A DNA stretch of 64,000 nt from contig CAKZTQ010000032.1 of assembly GCA_937921735.1 (NCBI GenBank), positions 32,169 through 96,168 on the forward strand, written 5' to 3'. Positions 43,512 through 61,072 of the stretch are shown in pieces (the first letter of the stretch is position 1; the number at the start of each line of letters is the position of its first letter). Both the position numbers and the translations under genes were made by a program. The notes under the pieces were generated by a model, which was not told the origin of the DNA, did not search any database, and saw only the letters and a list, made by a program, of their open reading frames with translations. The DNA is from an uncultured archaeon (GTDB taxonomy: Archaea > Hadarchaeota > Hadarchaeia > Hadarchaeales > Hadarchaeaceae).

Positions 43512-44483
43512 CTAGTCTACTCTCGAAATTTGAAGATTAAATAATAACTCGCTAACCGAATACTGTTTTTGCAAATCAAAATTTTGAAAGGAATAGAGGA
43601 AGCAATCAATCATCTTGTTTTTTGCTTCTTTCATAACTTTTTTCGATACTTTTCTGCCTATCAGAATTCCTTTTTCGCATTCTTCCCCCAATTCAAACAT
43701 ATATTTTTTAAGTTGTTCAACATCTCTTTTTTGTAAAGCACCCATTTTAATCTCGGCAATCAATTTTTTGCAATACCCTTTGGGCGAACTTTCTTTAATT
43801 AAGATATCAACGTGGCCTTCTGGAAAGGCTTTTTCGCCCAATACCTCGAAATCCTCCGCGGAAAGTGCACTAAGTCCTAAAGAGTTGAAAATTTGTTGGA
43901 GGTTTTCTCTTTGAGAAAGCCAGTGCCGTATCAGCGATTGAAGAATAAATTCGTGGAAAGGAAAAATCTGAGGTGGGTTGGACATTTTTCTATCAAATAC
44001 AAACAGAGGTTCAAATTCCTGAAAATCCTCCTCAAAAATGAATGTAGGACTTTTATAAGGTTCTCCAATTTGAGAAACGGCCTGGAGCGTCGTCAGATCT
44101 GCTTGAAAATGGGTTTTTCGATAGCCTCCCCTTAAAAGCAAATTTTCTGCTACATAAGCAAATTCTGGTTTAATCATCGACTCCGTGAATTCCCTGAGCG
44201 GCTTCAAAGAAATTCGAAAAGGAAAGTAATAGGTATGACCAGACATTTTGAAAGTTACGGGTGGCCAAGGGCCAACCCTATCGGCATCCTTTATGGCAAA
44301 TTTTCGCTCAACTCTATATAGATTAAATACTTTTGCCCCATACAAAAAAGAAACAAAATCTCCCTCATCGATTTCCGAAAATGTCCACACGCCGTTGATG
44401 CTATTTGTAAAGCCTGCCAATGCGTATTTGATACATAACTCCAAATTTGTTTTGTTTGAAACGGAAATTAAAAAATACGACAT
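43512..44483 (-). CDS. EVE/PUA-like domain fused to PD-(D/E)xK-type nuclease domain
   Basis: N-terminus MSYFLISVSNKTNLELCIKYALAGFTNSINGVWTFSEIDEGDFVSFLYGAKVFNLYRV; C-terminus GHVDILIKESSPKGYCKKLIAEIKMGALQKRDVEQLKKYM (D..ExK). Confidence 0.6.
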   Translation of the reverse strand: MSYFLISVSNKTNLELCIKYALAGFTNSINGVWTFSEIDEGDFVSFLYGAKVFNLYRVERKFAIKDADRVGPWPPVTFKMSGHTYYFPFRISLKPLREFTESMIKPEFAYVAENLLLRGGYRKTHFQADLTTLQAVSQIGEPYKSPTFIFEEDFQEFEPLFVFDRKMSNPPQIFPFHEFILQSLIRHWLSQRENLQQIFNSLGLSALSAEDFEVLGEKAFPEGHVDILIKESSPKGYCKKLIAEIKMGALQKRDVEQLKKYMFELGEECEKGILIGRKVSKKVMKEAKNKMIDCFLYSFQNFDLQKQYSVSELLFNLQISRVD

Positions 44484-56470: not shown

Positions 56471-57154
56471 TCATTTTCTTTTGAGAATACTTCTTTTGTT
56501 CCCCTTTTCCGGAAAATTTGATAATCGGCAGTGGTAACTCGTGATGCTCGCTTTGCCCTTTGGTGCTAAGCTAGGATCGGCATTTGAGTTAATGACAATG
56601 TCGTAACCCTCATCGAGATTCTTGATGAGCGTTGGGTATCCAAATAAGTTCAAATCTACTCCCAAGAATACAGCGAAGCAAGAGGGAGACATCTTCAAAT
56701 TCTTTACGTACCCAATAATCTTACCATTCAAGTCCCTTTTTCCAACAGTTCCAAAAAGTGGTCTTCGCATTTGCGTTGGACACGATAGGACTTCTGAAAG
56801 TTTTTTGTCTCCAACTCTTACCCCTTTAACTTCCCCTCCTTCAACAATTATTTTGTCCACTTTATGATCGACTAAGACCTTCCCGCCGTTAAGCTCGATT
56901 GTTTCTTTAAACCTTGTTTGCAAATCTTTACACCCCTCCTTTTGGAAAATGCCCTCCTTGCAGGTAATAGGAAACGCATCGGTAAGTCGCTGGCCGCAAG
57001 AGTTAGATCCATTAAATTGAAGTCCTTCTTCCAAATTTGAGACGTCACGAGAATCAAAGAAATCGTGAGAGGAATGGTTACGCCTAATTCGTCTCCCATG
57101 CCGCACAAAACCCATTAAAAAATCCAAGGAACGAAGGAAACGAGTATATAACAT
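56471..57154 (-). pseudogene. Degenerate phytoene-desaturase-like FAD oxidoreductase fragment
   Basis: KDLQTRFKETIELNGGKVLVDHKVDKIIVEGGEVKGVRVGDKK...VINSNADPSLAPKGKASI; no dinucleotide-binding N-terminus and conserved blocks scattered over frames. Confidence 0.6.
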
Positions 57155-57275: not shown

Positions 57276-57395
57276 TGCCCCGGGCGGGATTTGAACCCGC
57301 GTCGCCGGCTTTCCTCACCAGTGCACGAAAGGCCGACATGATTGGCCTTTGGACAGAGGCGCTGCCCAAAGTTGGCCCGTCTACACCACCGGGGC
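57276..57395 (-). tRNA. tRNA-Glu(TTC) with two introns (D-arm, ~57342-57371; 37/38, ~57311-57325)
   Basis: Removing 30 nt and 15 nt gives a 75-nt tRNA: GCCCCGGTGGTGTAGACGGGCCAATCATGTCGGCCTTTCGAGCCGGCGACGCGGGTTCAAATCCCGCCCGGGGCA. Confidence 0.9.
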
Positions 57396-57990: not shown

Positions 57991-58079
57991 TCCAGCTGCT
58001 TCGGATTGCTACATTTTAACGTCAAAATTAGGAAATAAAAAAAATTAAAACTTATAATTTCCATCATATCATTGATTAG

Positions 58080-59027
58080 ATGATTGGAATGAAGGTATTC
58101 CTTGCGTCTGGCTTCTTTAAGAACATTAAGAGAAGTGTTATGGATGGTGTGAAGGCCGATGAACTAGAGGTTAGAGACCACTTGCTTAAGGAGAAAATTC
58201 TCAAATACTATGGTGATGGCCCAATCAAGCTGTGGGCTTTGAAGGAGCCTCTTCATGATCGCTGGGCCTCCATCGATGAGGAGGATTACGTATTATTCTA
58301 TCATGCGGGCAAGTTTATCTATGTTGGCAGGGTATCCTTCAAATATCCATTTGCTGAAGAAAATAAGCAAATAAAAGCTGGCGGTTATTTAGCGGAAAGT
58401 GTTTGGGGTAGGGATGTTAACGGCGAAACTTGGCCCCTCCTCTTTTTCTTGAAAGATGTAAGGGAGATAGATCTACCCTTATCTAAACTCAACGAGTTGG
58501 CAGGATATAACTTGACGTCTGTAAGGGGATTTATGAAGATGCAGGAGAAGAAGGGTCAAAATGTTATTGAATATTTGCAGCAAGTTTACCTTAAACCTCC
58601 TGTTAAACCTCCGGCTAAGCCCTTAGAGTTAATCCAGCACGATGAGATAGTTGATGCTATCTATGCTCTTGGCGAGCTAATAGGATATAAGCCTGAAAGG
58701 AAATGGAGGCATAAAAGGTATGAGTTCGATGTCGTATGGCACAAGCCTCCTAGGATCGGCCCGAAATATGTGTTTGAAGTCCATGTAAAGGGAAGCTTGG
58801 AGAAAGCTCTACTAAGGCTTAAGCATGCCTATGACTTGTGGGAATCTCAAATATTTCTAGTCTCGACAGAAGATCAGCTTGAAGAGGCCCAATCAAAATT
58901 TCTAGGCGAGCTTCACGAGCTTAAAGACAAAGTGACCCTCCTAAATATAAAAGACGTCGAAGAGTTTTACGGTTTTAAAGGAAAATTCGAGTGGCTTGAG
59001 AGGAAGTTCGGATTAAAACCGACATAA
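58080..59027 (+). CDS. EVE/YTH-like N-terminal domain plus PD-(D/E)xK-like C-terminal domain
   Basis: HDRWASIDEEDYVLFYHAGKFIYVGRVSFKYPF...AESVWGRDVNGETWPLLFFLKDVREIDLP; C-terminal YEFDVVWHKPPRIGPKYVFEVHVKGSLEKALLRLKHAYD. Confidence 0.55.
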   Translation: MIGMKVFLASGFFKNIKRSVMDGVKADELEVRDHLLKEKILKYYGDGPIKLWALKEPLHDRWASIDEEDYVLFYHAGKFIYVGRVSFKYPFAEENKQIKAGGYLAESVWGRDVNGETWPLLFFLKDVREIDLPLSKLNELAGYNLTSVRGFMKMQEKKGQNVIEYLQQVYLKPPVKPPAKPLELIQHDEIVDAIYALGELIGYKPERKWRHKRYEFDVVWHKPPRIGPKYVFEVHVKGSLEKALLRLKHAYDLWESQIFLVSTEDQLEEAQSKFLGELHELKDKVTLLNIKDVEEFYGFKGKFEWLERKFGLKPT

Positions 59028-60667: not shown

Positions 60668-61072
60668 ATGGAGAAGGAAAAGAAAAAGGAACCTAAAATA
60701 CTTGAAGATTGCTATAAGTCTGCTGAGCATGAAAATGTGATTTGGGTTTGCGACGGAGCCGCAAACGTGGGTCAAGTGGGCCAAGCGGTTGGTGTTCTGC
60801 TAACAAACATAGATAAGGGACGCATGTGTTGTACAGTAGCCGTTGCAGCGGGCTCTAAGCCGCATCTGGACATAGCTGAAAAAGCGAAAAAGAACATAGT
60901 AATAAACGGGTGCGCAAACAGGTGCGCTTCCAAAGTTTTAGAGAAGGCTGGAAAGAAAATACACTATGAAATAATCATATCGAAGTATTTGCAAAAGGTT
61001 CCAACGCTTGACATCTATATGGGCGATGCAAAAAAGATAGCCCAAATAATAACTGAAGAAGCCAAGCTTTAA
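60668..61072 (+). CDS. DGC-domain putative zinc-binding protein
   Basis: DGAANVGQVGQAVGV, INGCANRCASKVLEKAGK. Confidence 0.8.
   Translation: MEKEKKKEPKILEDCYKSAEHENVIWVCDGAANVGQVGQAVGVLLTNIDKGRMCCTVAVAAGSKPHLDIAEKAKKNIVINGCANRCASKVLEKAGKKIHYEIIISKYLQKVPTLDIYMGDAKKIAQIITEEAKL

Follow-up and report, generated by a model that had tools for sequence, protein, structure and literature searches.

A modified-base reader joined to a PD-(D/E)XK-like domain in a hadarchaeal protein, a probable type IV restriction endonuclease

RESULTS

A fusion of a reader and a putative nuclease encoded by a genuine gene

The 64,000-nucleotide stretch of hadarchaeal DNA analyzed here (the window) carries a gene whose 315-residue product, P0001, unites a reader domain homologous to the N-terminal domain of Thermococcus gammatolerans McrB (TgMcrB) with a domain that has the fold order of PD-(D/E)XK nucleases. 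In our judgment, P0001 probably acts on its own as a modification-dependent (type IV) restriction endonuclease; it would be a small enzyme whose most likely function is the destruction of invading DNA with base modifications.

The P0001 open reading frame is intact, starts with ATG and agrees with the letters quoted in the first-pass annotation of this DNA. Translation would begin at M1 or at M4 (58089), the equivalent of which opens the reading frame of a relative in Bathyarchaeia (L113). Counted from its first base, the TATA-like box CTTATAAT lies 29 and 38 nt upstream of these two candidate starts, suggesting that the gene may have its own, nearly leaderless promoter. Full-length homologues were found at loci L010 (64% identity, one stop) and L130 (45% identity, intact), and the substitutions that separate the C-terminal domains of P0001 and L010 are overwhelmingly synonymous (pN 0.11, pS 0.83). 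Since homologues exist and substitutions follow this synonymous pattern, P0001 is a genuine gene and not a chance open reading frame. The same comparison gave a dN of 0.12 in the C-terminal domain and 0.33 in the reader, so that the former is the more constrained half. The coordinates of all features are collected in Table 1.

Scanned as a single protein, P0001 matched no Pfam family at E ≤ 10, yielded nothing useful from Pfam, PADLOC, NCBIfam or the PDB, and found no relatives among genome contigs and viral contigs. The leads came only from profiles and from PHROG_14240, which residues 13 to 168 match at 8.7e-12.

Table 1. Positions in the window of P0001, its parts and neighboring features
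Feature	Coordinates	Strand	Basis or remark
CDS P0001	58080..59027	+	Reader domain + linker + PD-(D/E)XK-like domain, 315 aa
AT-rich TATA-like box CTTATAAT	58051..58058	+	Read from sequence
Reader domain, residues 1-168, TgMcrB-type YTH/EVE (PUA superfamily)	58080..58583	+	Profile, Foldseek, alignments
Codons of W52, Y74, W118	58233-58235, 58299-58301, 58431-58433	+	
Proline-rich linker, residues 169-186	58584..58637	+	AlphaFold2; pLDDT <50 at 174-182
C-terminal restriction-endonuclease-like domain, residues 187-315	58638..59024	+	AlphaFold2, alignments, 78-sequence conservation
Putative metal-binding/catalytic core D217...E233-x-H235	58728..58784	+	Conservation in 78 sequences
Codons of D217, E233, H235	58728-58730, 58776-58778, 58782-58784	+	
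K248-H249-A-x-D252-x-W254 signature, helix alpha-B	58821..58841	+	77-78 sequences
H279-E280, conserved beyond core fold	58914..58919	+	H279 77/77, E280 76/77
tRNA-Glu(UUC), two introns	57276..57395	-	Neighbor, not part of the system
30-nt insert in tRNA-Glu D loop	about 57342-57371	-	Bounded by repeated GGCCAA
15-nt intron in tRNA-Glu anticodon loop	about 57311-57325	-	
43.5-kb gene	43512-44483	-	Sub-threshold NucS_C match, 37% GC

The N-terminal half is a TgMcrB-type reader

A profile of seven reader domains, the window's own among them, was run with hmmsearch against the PDB and matched the N-terminal domain of TgMcrB at 2.3e-9 (6p0f/6p0g) and 2.4e-8 (6ut5), with homology spanning profile positions 10 to 145. 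A Foldseek search with the AlphaFold2 (AF2) model of whole P0001 (pLDDT 89) likewise ranked TgMcrB entries first (6p0g, 3.7e-8), followed by weaker matches to ASCH, PH1033 and VcaM4I, so that the domain has the PUA-superfamily fold. The Pfam EVE family (PF01878) did not match P0001. By profile and by fold, these searches bear out the first-pass proposal of an EVE/YTH-type reader of the TgMcrB kind at the N terminus; the stretch quoted in its support does lie inside the reader but covers only the middle of a domain that extends over about residues 1 to 168.

Five reader residues, W52, W62, D69, Y74 and W118, are invariant among the aligned relatives. W52, Y74 and W118 are candidate aromatics of a base pocket, and TgMcrB aligns a W and a Y with the first two but an F with W118. 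We propose that the domain would flip a modified base into this aromatic pocket and that the base read is most likely N6-methyladenine. In the literature, the TgMcrB N-terminal domain is termed a 6mA-sensing YTH domain (PMC7897488), whereas the PDB title of 6p0g names m5C DNA.

The C-terminal half has a nuclease-like fold and nuclease-like core residues

Modeled alone, the C-terminal domain (C-domain) gave a confident AF2 structure (pLDDT 91, pTM 0.84) with helices (H) and strands (E) in the order H8-22, E25-32, E35-42, E51-56, H61-75, E78-83, which is the alpha-beta-beta-beta-alpha-beta order of the PD-(D/E)XK nuclease core. Its fold matches were individually weak (best E, 3e-3), and many of the best ones were PD-(D/E)XK nucleases; they include the R2 endonuclease domain, Can2, BstEII, SfsA and Hjc, entries that we take to belong to the PD-(D/E)XK superfamily. 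By sequence, the C-domain had no match in Pfam, NCBIfam or the PDB, and neither PF01939 (NucS) nor PF04471 (Mrr_cat) was found in P0001 (E ≤ 10) or in 59 aligned members (E value of 0.01).

An alignment of the C-domains of three members from the phylum retrieved 80 loci from 11.3 million contigs, and whole-genome searches brought further carriers beyond these; the relatives number about 80 and occur in both archaea and bacteria. Among 78 sequences, D217 is present in all and E233 in 76, W220, K248 and H249 are invariant, and the signature around K248-H249 is invariant wherever letters exist apart from A250 (77/78), with the columns covered by the search patterns P[TK]YVFEV[QH] and LKHA[YHF]D[LIE]W being biased; neither pattern covers D217, W220, G276, H279 or E280. 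At position 235, which the first of these patterns covers, Q stands in 61 of the 78 sequences, H in 9, N in 4, C in 2 and S in 2. The divergent members L132 to L134, which are less biased matches, have E-x-E and lack both K248 and H279; H279 is also missing from L130. In two members from Myxococcota (L082 and L087), S or L has taken the place of E233.

The first-pass annotation had called this C terminus PD-(D/E)xK-like, with an unusual E-V-H in place of ExK, and had reserved the role of a mere sensor for the case that a complete active site proved absent across homologues. The strand and helix order and the many weak fold matches agree with that description, the E-V-H corresponds to residues 233 to 235, and the homologues largely keep the D217/E233 pair together with Q or H at the lysine position. 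We know of no ExH enzyme, and H at this position is to our knowledge without precedent.

We consider the C-domain a putative nuclease on the strength of this fold and this conservation. Base flipping by the reader would place it on the DNA that the reader has bound; D217 and E233 would then coordinate a metal ion for cleavage of the backbone, and H235 and/or K248/H249 may replace the usual catalytic lysine. The absence of K248 from L132 to L134 weakens the idea that this residue is a universal migrated lysine.

Both halves exchange partners with restriction modules

In tblastn searches, the reader domain was found in other settings. The Archaeoglobus profundus provirus ApPV1 has it fused to a McrB-like AAA+ domain (AAA_5, 2.4e-14), and the gene that follows is annotated PD-(D/E)XK. 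Haloarchaeal plasmids carry the reader joined to Mrr_cat, and its partner is HNH in Peribacillus, Natronorubrum and Nocardiopsis. On the Peribacillus plasmid (L006:1751-3945), a NucS_C-domain protein, a gene annotated as MazG-like and the reader-HNH protein are adjacent, and in Nocardiopsis (L008) a gene annotated as a nucleotide pyrophosphohydrolase lies just upstream of the reader-HNH gene.

The C-domain, for its part, follows several kinds of reader, typed here by profile scoring (an earlier BLAST clustering of the N-terminal parts had merged nearly all of them). Most carriers have EVE (33/59 by Pfam at an E value of 0.01, and most others by an EVE profile). The TgMcrB-type reader precedes the C-domain in the window, in L010 and L130 and in the damaged L011; another PUA-like reader does so in L012, L014, L045, L081 and L117 (judged by eye and with the EVE profile); DUF1802 takes this place in L118; and Mrr_N takes it in L120 (7.9e-25) and, by similarity, in L084 and L089. 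The last two genes, from Chloroflexi, lie upstream of what reads as an SbcD/Mre11-type gene.

In a tree of the C-domain, for which the alignment is short and many forks are unsettled, the sequences with TgMcrB-type readers group together in a single clade (100/98) that stands well apart from the EVE-type copies of Hadarchaeota, the window copy groups with Bathyarchaeia and Thermoprotei and not with the copies of its own phylum, and Mrr_N requires at least two origins. The modules on both sides are thus swapped for restriction modules, and this is our strongest argument that P0001 is a restriction enzyme.

Patchy distribution and decay

Carriers of the C-domain are sparse: 3 of 28 genomes in the phylum, 13 of 257 in an archaeal class, 17 of 197 in a bacterial class and 12 of 229 in a third class. 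The gene has a GC content of 42% and the 684 bp upstream 34.5%, against 54% for the window. Horizontal acquisition of P0001 is the best explanation of this low-GC island and of the patchy distribution.

Several close relatives are damaged, although some of this damage may reflect assembly errors. The reading frame of L010 is interrupted by a single stop, TGA in place of the W62 codon; L011 is frameshifted, and its genome has another ruined copy; L114/L125 is a frameshifted relative of the window protein. In L113, the reader is 69% identical and the nuclease core is lost, and an N6-adenine methyltransferase gene follows (PF02384, 1.9e-7). In this Bathyarchaeia copy (L113:1285-2121 and L126), the window-type reader is intact and another tail stands in place of the nuclease core, with a fragment of the C-domain found at a distance of 42 kb.

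Relatives sit beside truncated methyltransferases

Neither defense genes nor a methyltransferase were found beside the window gene. In the host assembly, a metagenome-assembled genome of 1.05 Mb that is 83% complete, no DNA methyltransferase exceeded the Pfam cutoff for PF01555, PF02384 or PF00145 (N6/N4/C5). This is expected of an enzyme that attacks modified DNA, but at 83% completeness it does not prove absence from the host. Within that limit, the missing cognate methyltransferase and the patchy distribution agree with a type IV system.

Among the EVE-type relatives, six genes (L023, L032, L042, L053, L063 and L070, with the 5' end cut by the contig edge in L042) lie near a beta-class methyltransferase that is truncated at its C terminus: the matches end well short of full-length methyltransferase relatives, which have 453 to 534 amino acids. 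L013 and L051 have a similar context on weaker evidence, and several of these cases are related on the C-domain tree. On the far side of the gene stands a TdeIII restriction endonuclease without its N-terminal half or more (L070 and L080) or an NgoMIV restriction endonuclease (L063). A position at the junction between the methyltransferase and restriction genes of broken restriction-modification (R-M) systems fits an enzyme that is incompatible with an active methyltransferase, the evidence being one of association only.

The EVE-C-domain gene of Dehalococcoidia has a different setting, a conserved neighborhood with secA, a PolX-like gene and valS (names by sequence reading) at L018, L019, L025, L033, L038, L040, L047, L065, L071, L075 and L079. 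This stable context is unlike that of a mobile defense gene, and a purely mobile-defense view leaves it unexplained. A core-gene role in Dehalococcoidia is weakened by the prevalence of 17/197.

DISCUSSION

Alternative roles for P0001

P0001 might instead be only a sensor: the reader would bind modified DNA, and the C-domain, as a nuclease fold that has degenerated, would serve dimerization, DNA binding or recruitment and not cleavage. The replacement of the ExK lysine by H, Q, N, C or S, the loss of E233 in the Myxococcota members and the lack of a catalytic match by sequence in the PDB all lean this way, but the conservation is that expected of an enzyme, reaching from D217 and E233 to H249, D252 and, in most members, K248, H279 and E280. 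Moreover, Q or N replaces K in the active type II enzymes BglII, NotI and MspI (PMC4081073), and the C-domain is the half under more constraint and occupies the Mrr_cat slot behind Mrr_N. We therefore regard a pure sensor as unlikely. A nuclease directed at RNA or at the host, serving quality control of modified tRNA, rRNA or mRNA or acting as a toxin, seems to us slightly less likely again. YTH and EVE domains do read modified RNA elsewhere (PMC7641849 and PMC11090510), the secA/valS context in some Dehalococcoidia looks vertical, and some of the weak fold matches (Can2/Cdn1) are defense nucleases other than restriction enzymes. Against this, the closest characterized reader acts on DNA, as part of McrBC (PMC7897488), partners are swapped with DNA restriction modules, relatives lie at R-M loci, and the distribution is patchy, with copies that decay.

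That P0001 is instead one half of an ordinary R-M system, its restriction subunit, with a methyltransferase giving protection, as the position of several EVE-type relatives next to a beta-class methyltransferase might imply, is highly improbable. In at least six of these relatives the match to the methyltransferase is missing its C-terminal portion and would give no protection against an enzyme that cuts unmodified DNA; the type II endonuclease genes or remnants on the far side at L063, L070 and L080 belong to other families; and the window gene is without a nearby methyltransferase, with none over the cutoff in the assembly. Modification-dependent restriction thus remains our preferred reading. 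A more far-reaching version of it is tentative and would need to be met with some doubt: the C-domain may represent an undescribed ExQ/ExH family of PD-(D/E)XK nucleases, mixed with at least four reader types across archaea and bacteria, that tends to settle at resident R-M loci and to break them because the cutting of methylated DNA is incompatible with an active methyltransferase.

Relation to known systems

The reader is homologous to that of TgMcrB by sequence and by fold (6p0f/6p0g). TgMcrB, however, also has an AAA+ GTPase domain and acts together with McrC, whereas in P0001 the reader is joined directly to the nuclease-like domain; P0001 lacks an AAA+ domain, and the neighboring open reading frames scanned gave no match resembling McrC. 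VcaM4I (EVE-HNH) resembles P0001 in having a base-flipping reader of the PUA superfamily ahead of a C-terminal nuclease, in its spotty distribution and in its lack of a methyltransferase partner, but its reader is a true EVE domain for 5mC/5hmC and its nuclease is HNH (PMC7897488). Mrr-type enzymes (Mrr_N plus Mrr_cat) are related through those P0001 relatives that put Mrr_N before the same C-domain, which, unlike Mrr-type enzymes, has no Mrr_cat match in Pfam.

The closest precedent in architecture comes from Bell, Wolf and Koonin, who in 2020 reported EVE-PD(D/E)XK fusions as putative type IV enzymes and also stated that YTH domains like that of TgMcrB are found joined to PD(D/E)XK nucleases (PMC7641849). 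These share the plan of P0001, a modified-base reader and a PD-(D/E)XK domain in one chain, so the general plan was already known. The accessible part of that paper does not name the catalytic domain of P0001, the ExQ/ExH motif or its reader repertoire. What is new, as far as that part of the paper and the other literature searched extend, is an unnamed and undescribed catalytic domain with an ExQ/ExH motif, absent from the libraries searched. If it cuts, the enzyme would be a compact archaeal modification-dependent nuclease with an ExH/ExQ motif and without the usual lysine. Its catalytic domain is missing from current family libraries despite its spread over archaea and bacteria, and the broken methyltransferases near its relatives would offer a direct test of mutual exclusion between methyl-dependent cutters and methyltransferases.

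Surroundings of the gene

The first-pass annotation had described two reader-nuclease proteins of unrelated sequence within 15 kb, each beside a tRNA. Sequence comparison upheld the lack of relationship between P0001 and the 43.5-kb protein (best local E, 0.011). The reader-nuclease plan held for P0001; the 43.5-kb gene gave only a sub-threshold nuclease match (NucS_C), and its reader half is at most putative. That gene lies on the 3' side of a tRNA-Pro and has relatives of ~46 to 53% identity in 4 of 28 phylum genomes.

The tRNA-Glu near the P0001 gene is real. ARAGORN and Rfam missed it in default mode, and removal of both inserts leaves a normal tRNA-Glu(UUC); the Rfam matches near the gene are due to chance or to a fragment of its T arm. 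Its adjacency means little, and we rejected it as an integration site: the gene lies on its 5' side, and the tRNA end is not duplicated in the window, where nothing beyond a shared T-arm motif repeats it. The low-GC stretch by the gene also includes, at 56471-57154 (-), the apparent remains of an FAD-dependent (phytoene-desaturase-like) oxidoreductase, with no Pfam match over threshold, and, at 60668-61072 (+), a gene for a DGC-domain putative zinc-binding protein (PF08859, 5.2e-22).
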